Assembly (NCBI RefSeq): GCF_002834295.1
Contig: NZ_PISP01000003.1
Location: 1 to 64,000, forward strand
Reading direction: 5' to 3'
Source: Rhodohalobacter barkolensis
GTDB taxonomy: Bacteria; Bacteroidota; Rhodothermia; Balneolales; Balneolaceae
DNA length: 64,000 nucleotides
Within the stretch, counting starts at the first letter, position 1. Each line of letters opens with the position of its first letter. A program made the translations under genes and the position numbers. Of the stretch, positions 11,043 through 18,801 are shown one piece after another. Below the pieces are notes generated by a model. That model was not told the origin of the DNA. It did no database searches and saw only the letters and a program-made list of their open reading frames with translations.

Positions 11043-11083
11043 AATATACCCATTTGCACTTGGGCTTCACTCTTTTAAAAGGT

Positions 11084-14000
11084 ATGAGAAACTCTCAGTC
11101 CATAAAAATTTTAATCTCTCTCTTCTCAATTCTGCTCATCGGAGGGCTTTTTAATCAAGCCAGCGCGCAGGACAGAGCCGTACAGGATACAATTAGCAGC
11201 TCCAGAAACTGGCAGCCAATGCCAGCTGAATTAAAAATCAGTACTGCTTCTAAGCAGATGAACCTGCAGGTCCCTACTACTCAATCTCTCACAACTCCGG
11301 TAAACGGTTTTGCAGACGAGTTTGCTCCGGCAAATTGGACCTTTGATCCTGATGGCGGTGACGGGAGTGTCGATACAGGTGATGCGCCGAATTCAATAAG
11401 CTTAATTAGTTCAGACGATCAGTCGGGTACAGAGAATAATTCTACTTACTGTATCACAATTCCGGGTGGAAATGAGGGGGTTTTGGAGTTTGACTGGAAC
11501 TATGAATCCGATGACGTTGACGGACCTCAATATGACCCGTTTGGTTACATCGTTAATGGAAATACAACTCAATTAACCGACGATAACGGTGCAGATATTC
11601 AGTCGGGCAATGTGAGTTTTTCCATAAATGCCGGAGATCAATTCTGTTTCCTGGCGCGATCTACAGATCAACAGTTTGGAAGAGCCGAAACCCAGGTCAC
11701 CAATTTTAGTTTCACACCACCCGCGCCCACTGAAGAAAACATATTTACCACCTCTGGCACATGGACCGCACCCGAAGATGTATTTGAGATCACCGTTGAA
11801 GTGTGGGGAGGCGGAGGTGGTGGTAGCATTGAAGCTGCAGGTAATTCCTCGAAAGGTGGTGGAGGCGGAGGTGCATATTCAACGCAAACAATCAGTGTAA
11901 TTCCGGGAAACACTTATAACTTTACGGTAGGTCTTGGCGGAACTCCCGGAAATGCAGGAGGTGACTCATTTTTTGGTGATGGAAATGAGGTTCTTGCCAG
12001 TGGAGGAAGCAGCGGGAATCAATCTGATGGCGGTGCAGGCGGTACCGCAACTTCAAGCATTGGTAGTGTATCTTTTTCCGGAGGTACCGGTGGAAATGGA
12101 CAGACCACTGGCAATCCACCACCTACAAGAGCAGGCGGCGGCGGCGGTGGGTCTGCGTTTACTAACTCTAATGGTGGTAATGGTGTAAATGGCGCGCAAG
12201 AGAATGGTGGAGATGGCGGTATAGGAACTGGTAATGGTGGTGAAGGAAGCGTAGGAGATCAAGAAGCTCAACCCGGCCAAGTCCCCGGCGGCGGCGGTGG
12301 GGGCGGTGGACGAAATGGAAACAGCGCCAGCGGAGCCGATGGCCAAATTATCATCACATTTGAGCTTCCTGCACAACCCGACCCAACTCAAACCACAATT
12401 ACAGCTGATCCCGACATCTTAGTAGCTGACGGTAGTTCAACTTCTAATATCACCGTTCAAGCCGTTGACGAAGATGGAGTTAATATCACGGATGGAGGGG
12501 CAACCGTTACTCTGTCTGCAACAGATGGAACCTTAAGTCCGGTAACCGACAACGCCGATGGGACTTACAGTTCTACATTTACATCATCAAATACCCCGGG
12601 CGTAGTCACAATTTCCGGAACTATTGACGGAGATACGATAACCGACACCGCTGAGATCGAACTAACTCCGGCCTCTGGAACTGTTTACTATAGCATTCAG
12701 AGCGGTGATTTCGACAATCCGAACGCCTGGTCTTTCACCGGCCATGATGGCGACCCCGCAGGATTTGCACCCGGTTCCAGCGACATCATCTTTATTGGTG
12801 GCAGCAATAGCACAGATCACAATATTTCACTCGTTCAAGATTTCACGCTCAACGAGCCCGGCGAGCTGAATGTGGTTAACACAGGCGACGGAGCCGGTAT
12901 TTTATCGACTGAAAATTTTGTGATTTCGGGTACGGGCGAATTTACTCTCGAAAATGGTTCAACTTTAGAAATTGGTTCAGCGGACGGTATTTCAACTACT
13001 GCTTCAGCCGGAAATATTCAAACCAACACCCGTACTTTTGGCGAAGAGGCAAACTATGTGTACAACGGCCAATCAGAGCAAATCACAGGGGATGCCCTCC
13101 CAACAGATGTGAACAATCTTACCATTGATAATAGCAACAACGTACTTGCCAATCAGTCATACCGGGTAAATGGTACGCTTAACCTGCTCGACGGTGCATT
13201 CGTAATTGGAGACGGACTTTCCTTAATCGCTAACAATAAAAATGTCACTTCCGGGGAGCTCACTTATCAACTGGAAATATACGGACAGCCCGGGTACCGA
13301 ATGCTATCCTCACCTATTGCTGCAGACTTTGATAATTTTTTAAACGGTGTTCTTACTCAAGGGTATACCGGTGCTTCACTCTCCGGCGATTTACAACCCA
13401 ACGTACTTTGGTATGAAGAATCATTTGAAGGCACGGATAACCAGAGATGGCGGGCTCCGACGAGTGCTTCAAATCAAATAGTGCCGGGCCGAGGCTATTT
13501 TGTCTACATGTTTGGTGATGTGGAAAGCGACAATCGATACAACGATCCGCTACCCTACCTTCTGGATGTAAATGGATTGGAAAATGAAGGCACCGGTGGT
13601 CAGATTGACCTGAACGTTACCTATACCGCAGAAGCAGATACCGGATGGAATATGGTTGGAAATCCATATGGAGCGGCTATCGACTGGGATCACCCCTCAT
13701 GGACAAAAACCAATATAGATCCTACAATTTATGTCTGGGATCCCAATACGAATCAGTATTTAACCTGGAACGGCAGTGTTGGGGATATCGACGATGGTAT
13801 TCTGGCACCTTTCCAAAGTTTTTGGATAAAAGCAGATGAAAATCCTGAGCTTATTGTAAGTGAAGATGCAAAAACGTTTGGCGGTTCATTTTCAGGAAAA
13901 GCTACTCAGCAGGAGAATGCACCTCTCATTAGTATCAACGCCAGATATTCCAGGAGATATCAGTCCACGGCACATTTTTCTTTCAGCGAATCTGCCAGTT

Positions 14001-14704
14001 ATGGTTTAGATGAATCCGATGCATACAAACTCTTACCACCCCCCGGAGTAAGCGATTACTTGGAGGTTTACTCCCTGACAAATCGTAACGATCGGCTTGC
14101 AACCAATCATTTGCCACGCCGCTTTGGATCTAGCATCACCATTCCATTCAGTGTTAACGCTTATAAAGATGGATTCCCAATATCTGATGACATCGAACTT
14201 AATTTCTCAAACTTTGAAAATATTCCGGAGGCTTGGGAAGTTGAGCTGGTAAATCTTCAAACAGGTCAAACGTACAATGTCAGAGAATCGAAAAAAGTTA
14301 GAGTAGACATGAGTCATCTTGCAGAACATTCAGATGGAACTCGTCATAAAACAGGATATGAAGTTATAACCAGAGACAAAGATAGCCACATACAATTCGA
14401 ATTAAATATAAATCCGGGATCTGACGCTGCAGATCTGCCAAACTCATTCGAATTAAAACAGAATTATCCGAACCCGTTTAATCCTTCAACCCGGATTCGG
14501 TTTGATCTTCCAATACAAAGTGAAGTTAAGTTTGAAATTTATGATATGCTTGGTCGTAAAGTAGCTACAATCATTGACGAAACCCTTTCTGCAGGTAGCT
14601 ATGAGAGGGTTTGGGATGCATCAAACTTATCAAGCGGTGTTTATATCACAAGATTAGTCACATCCAATGGAGTGTTCACAAATAAAATGACTCTGATCAA
14701 ATAG
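11084..14704 (+). CDS. Secreted Gly-rich multidomain protein with T9SS sorting domain
   Basis: Large surface or secreted protein, 1206 residues from the ATG at 11084; this start places a signal peptide (hydrophobic ILISLFSILLIGGLF, cleavage near ASA-Q) at the N-terminus, whereas the TTG at 11054 adds ten unlikely residues. Domains by eye: N-terminal beta-rich region; Gly-rich segment (about 240-425) with runs such as WGGGGGGS and AGGGGGGSAF, like the Gly_rich_2 family; an invasin-type Ig-like domain (about 430-525, from TTITADPDILVADGSS); beta-rich repeats; and at about 1118-1206 a T9SS type A sorting domain (NYPNPFNPSTRIRF ... GVYITRLVT). It should be exported by Sec, then by T9SS. An adhesin or matrix role is a guess. 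Confidence 0.85.
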   Translation: MRNSQSIKILISLFSILLIGGLFNQASAQDRAVQDTISSSRNWQPMPAELKISTASKQMNLQVPTTQSLTTPVNGFADEFAPANWTFDPDGGDGSVDTGDAPNSISLISSDDQSGTENNSTYCITIPGGNEGVLEFDWNYESDDVDGPQYDPFGYIVNGNTTQLTDDNGADIQSGNVSFSINAGDQFCFLARSTDQQFGRAETQVTNFSFTPPAPTEENIFTTSGTWTAPEDVFEITVEVWGGGGGGSIEAAGNSSKGGGGGGAYSTQTISVIPGNTYNFTVGLGGTPGNAGGDSFFGDGNEVLASGGSSGNQSDGGAGGTATSSIGSVSFSGGTGGNGQTTGNPPPTRAGGGGGGSAFTNSNGGNGVNGAQENGGDGGIGTGNGGEGSVGDQEAQPGQVPGGGGGGGGRNGNSASGADGQIIITFELPAQPDPTQTTITADPDILVADGSSTSNITVQAVDEDGVNITDGGATVTLSATDGTLSPVTDNADGTYSSTFTSSNTPGVVTISGTIDGDTITDTAEIELTPASGTVYYSIQSGDFDNPNAWSFTGHDGDPAGFAPGSSDIIFIGGSNSTDHNISLVQDFTLNEPGELNVVNTGDGAGILSTENFVISGTGEFTLENGSTLEIGSADGISTTASAGNIQTNTRTFGEEANYVYNGQSEQITGDALPTDVNNLTIDNSNNVLANQSYRVNGTLNLLDGAFVIGDGLSLIANNKNVTSGELTYQLEIYGQPGYRMLSSPIAADFDNFLNGVLTQGYTGASLSGDLQPNVLWYEESFEGTDNQRWRAPTSASNQIVPGRGYFVYMFGDVESDNRYNDPLPYLLDVNGLENEGTGGQIDLNVTYTAEADTGWNMVGNPYGAAIDWDHPSWTKTNIDPTIYVWDPNTNQYLTWNGSVGDIDDGILAPFQSFWIKADENPELIVSEDAKTFGGSFSGKATQQENAPLISINARYSRRYQSTAHFSFSESASYGLDESDAYKLLPPPGVSDYLEVYSLTNRNDRLATNHLPRRFGSSITIPFSVNAYKDGFPISDDIELNFSNFENIPEAWEVELVNLQTGQTYNVRESKKVRVDMSHLAEHSDGTRHKTGYEVITRDKDSHIQFELNINPGSDAADLPNSFELKQNYPNPFNPSTRIRFDLPIQSEVKFEIYDMLGRKVATIIDETLSAGSYERVWDASNLSSGVYITRLVTSNGVFTNKMTLIK

Positions 14705-14781: not shown

Positions 14782-15702
14782 TCACTCCATCAACTTTCTA
14801 TACTCCGAAGTATTGGCAGGATCTGCATCACTTAGAATATTATAAGCAGCTGTGCGCACTGAAGGCGTTGCATCCATCAAAGCGGCTGTTATTTCTACAG
14901 ACTTGGTTCCGAAGAAGATATCAAACAGGTAATTATTGCTTGTCACACGTTTGGTCTCCCGGATCTCATCCAAAGCCTCAACAATTTCATTTCTGGCCTC
15001 TTCCGGATTTTCAGTAAACTGATCAAGACCGAGCCGGTGATACCTGTAGTACGCCGCTCTTAAATTTCTATATGATGGGTTCGTAATATCATTAATTAAA
15101 CCAAATCGGTTTCTTTGCGCTCCGATGGACCTGCCCCATCCCTGAGCTCCCGTATTTTGAGCTATTTCAAAAATTTCTTGTGCATTGTTGAAAAATGAGG
15201 TTCCGCCAAGCTCTGAAAAACTATCGTAATCATAACCTAATAAGATGTAGGTATAAAAATCGATGAAGGTGGTTAACTCATCAAATTGCAGATCATCAAA
15301 AATCAGATTTTTATTTCTGGTGTAGTTGAACCTCCAGTTGCTGTCACTGATCACAAAAAGGTTCGTTTGCCGGTTGGAATTGTAAATAGGTCTGCTGGCC
15401 GTTATCACCGCTTCGGCCGTGAAATTCGAATTACTATCAGAGTCTGTAAGGATGATCTGAATATTGCAAAGAATACGTTCATGCTCTTGATAACGGTCGT
15501 CCGTCCACCTGTTTTCGTTTAGATATCTCTCCAGTGCCGGACCCAGTTCTGAAATGTAATCATAGGATGATCCACTGATCTGTCGATCATTTATCGAAAC
15601 GGTGCAATTCAGCTCCTGTGCATTTAAACTTTCCGAGCTGAGAGTTAAAGCCAACAGAAGCAGAAGTTTAACAATAATTATGATTTGAAGTTTATCCTTC
15701 AT
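14782..15702 (-). CDS. porD: T9SS protein PorD (DUF4835 family)
   Basis: Exported protein of the DUF4835/PorD family, implicated in type IX secretion and gliding in Bacteroidota. 306 residues from the ATG at 15702: signal peptide (IIIIVKLLLLLALTL, then SLNAQ-ELNC), the ELNCTVSINDRQISG N-terminal strand of the family, mid-region FIDFYTYILLGYDYDSF and the GAQGWGRSIGAQRNRFGLINDITNPSYRNLR core, ending with the expected helical tail. A TTG at 15735 gives 11 extra residues without support. Divergent from the PorV-like gene with 39 bp between starts, so the two may share a control region. Confidence 0.85.
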   Translation of the reverse strand: MKDKLQIIIIVKLLLLLALTLSSESLNAQELNCTVSINDRQISGSSYDYISELGPALERYLNENRWTDDRYQEHERILCNIQIILTDSDSNSNFTAEAVITASRPIYNSNRQTNLFVISDSNWRFNYTRNKNLIFDDLQFDELTTFIDFYTYILLGYDYDSFSELGGTSFFNNAQEIFEIAQNTGAQGWGRSIGAQRNRFGLINDITNPSYRNLRAAYYRYHRLGLDQFTENPEEARNEIVEALDEIRETKRVTSNNYLFDIFFGTKSVEITAALMDATPSVRTAAYNILSDADPANTSEYRKLME

Positions 15703-15741
15703 ATTCAGATAATATAAGTTGTAAAACGAAATCAATTGAGA

Positions 15742-16569
15742 ATGATAAAGAGGACTTCAATAATATCCCTTTTTATTTCAACAATTTCTGTGGCTTTATG
15801 GGTAATCTTTACTTCTCCTTTAAAGGCACAGTCTGTTATAGGGGCCAAAGCCATTTCAATGGGGCAAATCGGTGTGTCCATTCCAAATTCGGAATGGGCC
15901 GTATTTAACAATTCAGCCCTGTTACCAACGGATGGTAACCAATTTTCATTTTACGGTTTTCGATATGCAGGGATTGCAGAAATAACAGATATGGCTGCAT
16001 CCATCAATATGCCGTCAAAGATCGGTGTTTTTGGAATCGGAATACATCGATACGGATTCAATCTTTTCAGTGAAAATCGGTTTCGTATTGCCTACAAGAA
16101 TAGCGAAGGTAAAATCCACTATGGCACATCTCTCTCATATATTCATGTTTTTCAAGGTGAAAATTACGGTTCAGCCGGAGCCATAGGGCTAAACCTGGGA
16201 GTTGCAGCAGAGATAACTCAATCATTCTGGCTTGGAGCCCGGGCAACGAATGTAAATCAGCCGGCTTATGGAGACACCGATGAAGAACTGCCCAGAGAAC
16301 TTGCAGCAGGATTAAGCTACAACCCCACAGAAAAGGCTCAGATCGTTTCAGAAATTGTCAAGGATATCCACTTCCCCCTCTCCTTCAGAACAGGAATTGA
16401 GTATGAATTCTTCACTGCTTTTTATGCCCGGGCAGGTATTACAACCAAGCCTTCTACCTACTCATTCGGGTTCGGATACGGTTCCAATCGATGGGGAATA
16501 AATTTTGCGGTTCAGCAGCATAATCCGCTCGGTATGAGTCCTGCCCTTGATCTATCAATCCGAATTTGA
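15742..16569 (+). CDS. PorV/PorQ-like outer-membrane beta-barrel protein
   Basis: Predicted outer-membrane barrel of about 275 residues: signal peptide (SLFISTISVALWVIFTS ... KAQS), then GAKAISMGQIGVSIPNSEWAVFNNSALLP, the opening typical of PorV/PorQ and related FadL-like barrels, followed by alternating strands up to DLSIRI at the C-terminus. The ATG at 15742 is preferred to the TTG at 15736. In T9SS, PorV shuttles cargo to the attachment complex, but this protein is shorter than PorV and could be an independent paralogue. It is followed 4 bp later by the helix-hairpin-helix gene, so they are co-transcribed. Confidence 0.65.
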   Translation: MIKRTSIISLFISTISVALWVIFTSPLKAQSVIGAKAISMGQIGVSIPNSEWAVFNNSALLPTDGNQFSFYGFRYAGIAEITDMAASINMPSKIGVFGIGIHRYGFNLFSENRFRIAYKNSEGKIHYGTSLSYIHVFQGENYGSAGAIGLNLGVAAEITQSFWLGARATNVNQPAYGDTDEELPRELAAGLSYNPTEKAQIVSEIVKDIHFPLSFRTGIEYEFFTAFYARAGITTKPSTYSFGFGYGSNRWGINFAVQQHNPLGMSPALDLSIRI

Positions 16570-16573
16570 ATGA

Positions 16574-18688
16574 ATGCGGATGAAAAACACAAACAGAACA
16601 TATCGAACATTTGACAAACGCATAGTCGGTATATACTGCATTTCAATACTGATTTTTTCAACCGTTTTCTATCCATCTGAACCTGTAAAAGCCCAGCAAA
16701 AAGATTCTACACAAACTCGCATCGAACAAGATATTGAGCGAGCTCTTGACGAGTTTGACAGTGATGAATCAGAACAAAACCTTGAAGAGCTTCTTGAATT
16801 TCTTCAGAATCTGGCAAATAACCCCTTGAATATAAACCGGGCAGATGTAGATGATTTACTTCAGGTACCGGGCTTGAATTTTCGTCTGGCCCAAAATATT
16901 GTCGAGTATCGTGAAACAGAAGCACCATTTCAGTCTATCAATGATCTGTTAAATGTAACGGGAATTGGAGAGGCAACACTGGATCGAATCCTACCCTATA
17001 TCGCTGTCAGTTCGGGACTGGATCGCGGCAGAGATCTCTATTTAAATTCAAAATACTGGACTGAGAACAGCCGATTTGAAAATTTCACCCGATATCAGCA
17101 GACGCTTGAAGAGCAGCACGGTTTTCAGCGTCCTGATACTTCAGGAGGATTTGTAGGCAGCCCTTTTAAGTACTATCAACGGTTCAGATTCACCAGTAAT
17201 CATCTCTCCCTTAACCTAACCCAGGACAAAGATCCCGGCGAACCCCTAAATCATCCGGCAGATTTTGATTACTCTTCCTGGCACGTTGCACTCATGGATA
17301 ATGGCCGTCTTAAAAGTTTAGTGATAGGTGATTATAGTGTTTCATTTGGTCAGGGATTACTGCTATGGAGTGGTGGAGCATTTGGTAAGGGCAGTGAGGT
17401 GATCCGAACACCCAATAAAAACGATCGTGGAATTCGTCCATTTACTTCAGCCCAGGAGATGACGGGATTCAGGGGCGTAGCTGCAACATACGGCGGTCGG
17501 CTGCAGCTATCCGGTTTTTATTCTAATCGCAAGCGCACAGCATCAGAAATTAACGACACGTATGTACGCTTTCCGACTGAAAGCGGATATCACAGAACGC
17601 TCAATGAGAGAGAAAGGAGATTCAATCTTGAACAGGAAACAATCGGTGGTCGATTAAGAGTTCAGATTCCATATGGATTTTTCGGTATATCAGGTTATCA
17701 CAATCGATTCGACAAACCCATACAAACCGGGAACCTTCCCTGGCAAATCAACAATTTTGAAGGGCAAACAATTAGCGGCTATTCTGCTGACTATCGACTA
17801 CTGGCCGGTCCCGCTCTGCTTTTTGGCGAAGCCGCTTATACTGATAATGGCGGTTATGGTGTGATCAGCGGTGCCGAGCTGGAGCTTGGAAATCGAACCG
17901 ATGCTGTAGCCGTTTATCGGTATTACGAACCAACCCTGCAATCTATTTTTGGGGCGGGATTTGGTGAACAGTCCGGTGATCCAGGCAATGAAGAAGGTTT
18001 TTACTTTGGAGTACGACACGAACTGAGCTCCAAAGTTCAGGTTAGTGCCTACATTGATCAGTTTCGCTTCCCTTCAGCACGCTTTCAGCAGCGGCAACCC
18101 ACTTCGGGGTACGACTGGCTTTCACTATTCGAATTCAATCCGGTCCCATCATTGAAGTTCTATGCTCTTTTCCGACATAAAGTGAGAGAAGAAGAGTATG
18201 CAGATTTTGATGATTTTGGCCGAGAGTTTAGAATCTTGGGAGCAAACAGACGTACCGGAGCCAGATTTCAGGCAGAATATCAGGTTACTCCATCGGTGAG
18301 ACTTCGAACACGGTTTGATATGTCCCGTTCAAAATCGACCGGAAATGGGTCAAGCCGTGGCTACTTAGTCTTTCAGGATATTCGATTCTATGTATCCCAA
18401 AATCTTCGGGTTGACGCTAGAGCAACACTTTTTAATACCGATGATTTTAATTCCAGAGTGTATCAGTTCGAAAACGACCTGCTCTTTGTTTTATCCAATA
18501 CGATGCTGTTTGATCGTGGTCAGAGGATGTATATGCTGATAAATTACAGTGCATCGTCTTGGCTCGATTTCTGGTTGAAACTATCCACTACAGTCTATCA
18601 AAACCGGGATGTCATCAGCAGCGGTAACCTGCAGATTGACGGCAACCGGAAAAGTGATATTGGAATTCAAGCCAGAGTTAGATTTTGA
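16574..18688 (+). CDS. Outer-membrane protein with ComEA-like helix-hairpin-helix domain
   Basis: 704 residues. Signal peptide with a long n-region (hydrophobic IVGIYCISILIFSTVF, cleavage near VKA-Q at 40-41); an acidic helical stretch (45-82); tandem helix-hairpin-helix motifs at 83-145 closely resembling ComEA (PLNINRADVDDLLQVPGL, then LLNVTGIGEATLDRILPYI), the first hairpin being GLN rather than GIG; then about 550 residues of aromatic, alternating strands (YQRFRFTSNHLSLNL, GLLLWSGGAFGKGSEV, and a final IGIQARVRF) that look like a large beta-barrel. The family is widespread but, to my knowledge, uncharacterised. A DNA- or ligand-binding periplasmic plug on a barrel is inferred. Operon with the PorV-like gene. 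Confidence 0.75.
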   Translation: MRMKNTNRTYRTFDKRIVGIYCISILIFSTVFYPSEPVKAQQKDSTQTRIEQDIERALDEFDSDESEQNLEELLEFLQNLANNPLNINRADVDDLLQVPGLNFRLAQNIVEYRETEAPFQSINDLLNVTGIGEATLDRILPYIAVSSGLDRGRDLYLNSKYWTENSRFENFTRYQQTLEEQHGFQRPDTSGGFVGSPFKYYQRFRFTSNHLSLNLTQDKDPGEPLNHPADFDYSSWHVALMDNGRLKSLVIGDYSVSFGQGLLLWSGGAFGKGSEVIRTPNKNDRGIRPFTSAQEMTGFRGVAATYGGRLQLSGFYSNRKRTASEINDTYVRFPTESGYHRTLNERERRFNLEQETIGGRLRVQIPYGFFGISGYHNRFDKPIQTGNLPWQINNFEGQTISGYSADYRLLAGPALLFGEAAYTDNGGYGVISGAELELGNRTDAVAVYRYYEPTLQSIFGAGFGEQSGDPGNEEGFYFGVRHELSSKVQVSAYIDQFRFPSARFQQRQPTSGYDWLSLFEFNPVPSLKFYALFRHKVREEEYADFDDFGREFRILGANRRTGARFQAEYQVTPSVRLRTRFDMSRSKSTGNGSSRGYLVFQDIRFYVSQNLRVDARATLFNTDDFNSRVYQFENDLLFVLSNTMLFDRGQRMYMLINYSASSWLDFWLKLSTTVYQNRDVISSGNLQIDGNRKSDIGIQARVRF

Positions 18689-18708: not shown

Positions 18709-18801
18709 AAACCCATTCATGGGTTTATCATACGAGCGCAGGATTTATCCTCGCGATAAAAAAATGGATAACATACGTGGCACGGTTTTAAACGTGCCAC
18801 G
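18709..18801. repeat. Cluster of three palindromes between convergent genes
   Basis: Three consecutive palindromes: AAACCCAT-TC-ATGGGTTT (18709-18726, perfect), an imperfect one around AGGA-TTTA-TCCT (about 18736-18755), and CGTGGCACG-GTTTTAAA-CGTGCCACG (18776-18801, perfect 9-bp arms). They fill the space between the stop codons of the helix-hairpin-helix gene and pgk. None has a proper T-run, so the arrangement looks more like REP/BIME-type dispersed palindromes than a terminator. Confidence 0.65.

Follow-up and report, generated by a model that had tools for sequence, protein, structure and literature searches.

A conserved helix-hairpin-helix barrel protein of Rhodohalobacter barkolensis and its FadL-fold partner as candidates for outer-membrane DNA uptake in Bacteroidota

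A 704-amino-acid protein of Rhodohalobacter barkolensis, here called HHB (HhH-barrel outer-membrane protein), probably acts together with PVL, the FadL/PorV-fold product of its operon neighbor, as an outer-membrane DNA-uptake channel that feeds ComEC; we place this reading at a probability of about 0.57, on the strength of genome context and predicted folds. The two genes were found in a 64,000-nucleotide stretch of the genome (contig NZ_PISP01000003.1, positions 1 to 64,000, referred to as the window). HHB is a conserved, real protein that has carried no name, and a search of the literature on HhH-barrel proteins in Bacteroidota found no description of, or experiment on, the family. The architecture of HHB, its predicted barrel and HhH folds, its operon with PVL, an operon with comEC in family f19, and its independence of the T9SS were all obtained by computation. 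The interpretation in the initial annotation was supported in part: its inference of a role in DNA uptake is strongly backed by the PVL-HHB-comEC operon of f19, by the absence of HHB from the comEC-less family f13, and by the enrichment of DUF5689, the mark of another transformation locus, in genomes without HHB.

Architecture and conservation of HHB and PVL

The HHB gene lies at positions 16574 to 18688 of the forward strand, where the initial annotation had placed it, and starts with ATG; the assignment draws on the open reading frame, Pfam, a structural model, and orthologues. It encodes a signal peptide region (residues 1 to 41; 16574 to 16696, plus strand) that was recognized from the sequence and from a hydrophobic helix at residues 15 to 31 of the model and has a putative cleavage site, a ComEA-type double HhH (residues 83 to 145; 16820 to 17008, plus strand), and a beta-barrel (residues 162 to 704; 17057 to 18685, plus strand). 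The convergent gene behind HHB is pgk, as read from its own sequence, and a consensus scan alone placed a terminator-like palindromic hairpin between the two genes (18776 to 18801, listed without a strand; nine pairs, scored on the minus strand).

The roughly 550 residues outside the HhH pair matched no domain in a Pfam scan, and comEA models alone were matched in NCBIfam, all of them below threshold. An AlphaFold2 model built on a 27-sequence alignment (A1; mean pLDDT, 78; pTM, 0.75) placed about 24 long strands between residues 167 and 703, and the protein ends in QARVRF, a last strand with the aromatic final residue of outer-membrane beta-barrels. The barrel that had been expected behind the HhH pair was thus borne out by the model, with about 24 strands in place of the predicted 16 to 20. 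Its top structural matches were the usher pores FimD and PapC (FimD 9fxs_D against residues 162 to 704: Z, 15.9; rmsd, 3.7 Å over 353 residues); since other barrels, including TonB-dependent receptors, scored only slightly below the ushers, the conclusion was confined to a large barrel of about 24 strands. HHB resembles the ushers, the nearest solved barrels, in strand number and wide pore, but it has no Pfam usher match, no nearby pilus genes, and about 8% identity to them, so that the shape alone is shared. The description of HHB as secretin-like did not hold, because the Secretin domain (PF00263) was absent from HHB in the Pfam scan and one chain makes up the whole barrel; with PilQ-type secretin pores HHB shares the proposed role but not the multimeric secretin domain.

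The ComEA-type double HhH recognized in the initial annotation was confirmed. Residues 83 to 143 matched Pfam HHH_3 far above chance (67.3 bits; E, 1.3e-18), and the modeled pair superposed on Geobacillus ComEA (8dss_B) with a Z of 13.0 and an rmsd of 1.0 Å over 65 residues at 45% identity. ComEA itself (Geobacillus stearothermophilus 8dss; TIGR01259) has the same tandem HhH but is small and periplasmic or anchored in the inner membrane, whereas in HHB the domain is fused to a roughly 550-residue barrel, and HHB scored below the curated comEA cut-off (TIGR01259; 51.2 versus 152.35 bits). The possibility that HHB is simply the ComEA of its genome was rejected because a separate, true ComEA of 175 amino acids is encoded there; the other HhH match in that genome was Tex. 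Riemerella RA0C_RS02645 was also rejected as an HHB, since its published description, with an HhH at residues 236 to 301 and a periplasmic prediction (PMC8459023), gives a different architecture. Porphyromonas gingivalis PGN_0421, whose published description places an HhH at residues 94 to 165 (PMC11532111), is on that description probably an ordinary ComEA.

PVL (277 amino acids; 15736 to 16569, plus strand; likelier start, the ATG at 15742) ends 4 bp upstream of the HHB start at 16574, in agreement with the earlier report of a PorV-like gene at that distance. Its model (pLDDT, 88.5) has 14 strands in a FadL fold and superposed on FadL (Z, 30.6), on the T9SS protein PorV (8gl6_F; Z, 29.8), and on a FadL-like chain from Bacteroidota BAM complexes (9hjm_F; Z, 26.4). 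PVL thus shares the 14-strand fold of the PorV/FadL family but differs from it in its length of 277 residues, in having no Pfam match, and in scoring 26 bits against the NCBIfam PorV/PorQ cut-off of 90.

Full-length relatives of HHB were found in the whole order Balneolales, in Saprospiraceae, Prolixibacteraceae, Ignavibacteria, and Melioribacteraceae, and in candidate division KSB1; the loci of two close relatives (L034 and L073) belong to Rhodohalobacter species. Since the HhH part of the full-length profile also picks up ComEA and Tex, that profile gives too high a count of HHB; a barrel-only profile (A3) was therefore built, with which HHB was detected in 61 of 80 genomes (51 families), one of the 61 (G150) having a 194-amino-acid remnant. 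The open reading frame, the architecture, and the operon were kept in nearly all Balneolales relatives, where the order porD (minus strand), PVL (plus strand), HHB (plus strand) is nearly invariant; this order was found out to KSB1 and Ignavibacteria. When conservation of the PVL neighbor was checked, as the initial annotation had suggested, PVL was the same-strand gene at position -1 in nearly all Balneolales relatives and in 30 of 60 phylum-wide loci; porD was the opposite-strand gene at position -2 in 18 of the 60.

A few loci depart from this arrangement. PVL and HHB are about 5.3 kb apart in Rhodohalobacter sulfatireducens (L073:3-6007) and about 0.7 kb apart in L015, unlike in any other close relative, and these spacers may be insertions into the operon. 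In an uncultured Aliifodinibius MAG (L083:5096-7996) and in L026, the reading frame of PVL, of HHB, or of both is broken in two, with pieces that overlap or adjoin each other; these are either pseudogenes or assembly errors.

Association with comEC and with a second transformation locus

The gene comEC encodes the known inner-membrane DNA importer. In phylum-wide clustering of gene contexts, comEC was the next gene after HHB in each of the four f19 loci. Of 71 genomes (25 genera) searched in this family, 60 carried HHB and comEC together, and in 56 of the 60, representing 22 genera, comEC lay directly 3' of HHB in the same orientation. The gap between HHB and comEC ranged from -19 to +44 bp in the 24 loci that were read fully and from -4 to +5 bp in 18 of them; in G041 the two frames overlap by 10 bp. 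The order was PVL-HHB-comEC, with PVL ahead of HHB in 21 of the 24 loci and mostly overlapping the HHB start. The next commonest flanking family occurred in just 10 of the 24 loci, so the adjacency goes beyond a general preservation of gene order. The four genomes in which both genes were present and not adjacent (G348, G363, G374, and G385) all belong to genus g148. An operon with a dedicated competence gene was found in f19 alone; elsewhere, the window included, HHB and comEC lie apart, and the genome of the window encodes ComEC, the separate ComEA, and DprA.

In the phylum sample, comEC (PF03772) was present in 288 of 296 genomes, and this near universality leaves a co-occurrence test with little power. 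Seven of the eight genomes without comEC belong to family f13; against the full HHB profile four of them gave no match and three gave weak HhH-type matches, and the barrel-only profile found no HHB in the two f13 genomes that were checked. The eighth (G289), a fragmented assembly of 290 contigs, had HHB and no detected comEC. Within f19, four genomes (G328, G349, G350, and G352) lacked HHB and comEC while their congeners had both, and the genera g149, g150, and g152 each include genomes without either gene. In G150, where HHB is reduced to the remnant, comEC has two in-frame stops, and the two genes have apparently decayed jointly. The joint losses in f19 concern adjacent genes and few events, and the absence in f13 concerns a single lineage; both points count against the association.

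Other Gram-negative bacteria take up DNA by a route composed of a pilus and a secretin. A secretin was missing from 44 of the 80 sampled genomes, and comEC was present in 42 of the 44; among these 42, HHB was found in 33, a DUF5689 locus only in 6, and neither in 3. The genome of the window has one secretin-domain protein (G000:C1:916944-917417; E, 1.3e-29; 638-amino-acid frame), so that the organism may have a Tad, T2SS, or T4P-like system, and another outer-membrane route is possible there.

The DUF5689 locus is known from Riemerella anatipestifer, a member of Bacteroidota without pili, in which the outer-membrane barrel RA0C_RS04915 and its DUF5689 neighbor RA0C_RS04920 are both essential for transformation (PMC8459023). 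Like HHB and PVL, the two Riemerella genes pair a non-secretin outer-membrane barrel with a partner; they differ in that RS04915 has a carboxypeptidase-regulatory-like domain and RS04920 is the DUF5689 protein, whereas HHB has an HhH and its partner is of FadL type. Since DUF5689 weakly matches unrelated multidomain proteins, only strong matches (E below 1e-40) were counted. These occurred in 9 of 19 genomes without HHB versus 3 of 61 with it (Fisher p, 5.8e-5, uncorrected for phylogeny), one of the three being the genome with the HHB remnant, and in five of six loci that were read the preceding gene coded for an outer-membrane barrel-like protein. The two types of locus are thus largely complementary in their distribution. 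The genome with the HHB remnant and the interrupted comEC (L198:7884-8465 and G150:C1:162198-162944) has three strong DUF5689 matches.

The HhH pair and the substrate of the channel

In a DNA-uptake pathway for natural transformation whose outer-membrane components are HHB and PVL, HHB would supply a wide barrel made of one chain, its N-terminal HhH pair lying in the periplasm, and PVL would assemble with HHB or plug it. Double-stranded DNA would pass through HHB into the periplasm, where ComEA, a separate protein, would receive it; one strand would then cross the inner membrane through ComEC, and DprA and RecA would act thereafter. A broader claim, which we hold at slightly less than even odds, is that HHB and PVL represent a novel type of translocon for DNA in the outer membrane, made of a single chain of about 24 strands, an HhH pair, and a FadL-type partner, that replaces the pilus and secretin route across most Bacteroidota and neighboring phyla.

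The initial annotation had further suggested that the HhH pair binds incoming DNA. In the HHB of the window, hairpin 1 is G-L-N (PGLN), degenerate as had been noted, and hairpin 2 is a canonical G-I-G, so that the G-h-G motif for the DNA backbone is not present in both hairpins. Among 126 HHB members below 70% identity, positions of the HhH fold persist (P84 in 111, N88 in 109, L95 in 113, R113 in 95, L125 in 109, and P141 in 90), and the hairpin glycines are poorly kept (G100 in 49, G102 in 6, G130 in 80, and G132 in 42); hairpins such as F-L-S-P and G-F-D occur in many diverged members, including comEC-linked ones. The HhH of the window's HHB is acidic, with 4 K/R versus 9 D/E residues, compared with 8 versus 8 in the ComEA of the same genome. 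Because the hairpin glycines are mostly lost, even in members linked to comEC, these sequence comparisons make DNA binding by the HhH pair doubtful. Loss of HhH residues had been named beforehand as evidence against the annotation, and it weighs in part against DNA binding by the HhH, not against DNA uptake by HHB. The pair would most likely have a gating or docking role in the periplasm, and in Balneolota, where hairpin 2 is canonical, it possibly still touches DNA.

The HhH fold is a structural plug or docking module in PsbU or GspK, and weak matches to PsbU and T2SSK were obtained. These matches, together with a family in which N88, L95, R113, L125, and P141 outlast the hairpin glycines, fit an explanation in which HHB serves some substrate other than DNA as a general channel or receptor in the outer membrane, the HhH is a structural plug or docking element, and the comEC operon of f19 reflects local co-regulation. 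The FadL-type partner, which suggests hydrophobic substrates, and the confinement of comEC adjacency to one family agree with this explanation as well. Less easily reconciled with it are the distances close to zero that separate HHB from comEC in 22 genera, the shared absence and decay of the two genes, and the enrichment of the Riemerella transformation locus in genomes without HHB. We regard this explanation as unlikely, although it is the best of the alternatives to a DNA-uptake channel.

Relation to porD and the T9SS

The gene porD (DUF4835; 14782 to 15735, minus strand; NF052317 E, 6.9e-92) belongs to the T9SS. PVL had been described as facing it, but the two genes are divergent and stand back-to-back. 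Next to porD, positions 11054 to 14704 (plus strand) encode a secreted protein of 1,216 amino acids with a glycine-rich domain, Invasin_D3/Big_1, and a T9SS C-terminal tail (Pfam Por_Secre_tail; E, 2.7e-10), a probable cargo adhesin of the T9SS.

The adjacency of porD to the HHB locus is old and widespread, and it counts against the DNA-uptake reading; with porD as the divergent neighbor in Balneolales, Rhodothermia-type genomes, KSB1, and Ignavibacteria, and with PVL superposing on PorV as described above, HHB and PVL could be a T9SS accessory related to SprA-PorV, in which HHB is a second barrel of the outer membrane and PVL its PorV-like partner. When the T9SS markers SprA (TIGR04189) and PorD (PF16119) were profiled in the 80 genomes, both were found in the same 74; all six genomes without them (G041, G082, G101, G113, G213, and G260) kept HHB, and 19 of the 74 with both lacked it, which indicates that porD follows the T9SS and HHB does not. 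The partner of HHB in f19 is moreover comEC, and one of the six, G041, has a comEC-coupled HHB; PVL also fits FadL equally well, as it does the FadL-like chains of Bacteroidota BAM complexes. On the SprA and PorD profiles HHB was rejected as a T9SS member, the T9SS link offered as an alternative in the initial annotation was set aside, and an accessory role is improbable; porD probably does not belong to the uptake system. A role for HHB as a DNA receptor, on the surface or in the periplasm, that serves nutrition or biofilm attachment instead of transformation would be expected to show the same anatomy and comEC link, as ComEC could import DNA for either purpose; such a role is more improbable still, given that the genome of the window encodes DprA, a transformation-dedicated protein.

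The reading of HHB and PVL as a DNA-uptake channel bears on naturally competent Bacteroidota such as P. gingivalis, which according to a 2024 paper needs ComEA and ComEC for transformation, has no identified type II or IV secretion system, and does not involve its pilus, and whose outer-membrane crossing of DNA is there called unclear (PMC11532111). Through the operon tie to comEC, HHB and PVL offer a concrete candidate pair for this missing outer-membrane step in Bacteroidota, a step that would bear on the movement of resistance genes among gut and oral bacteria.
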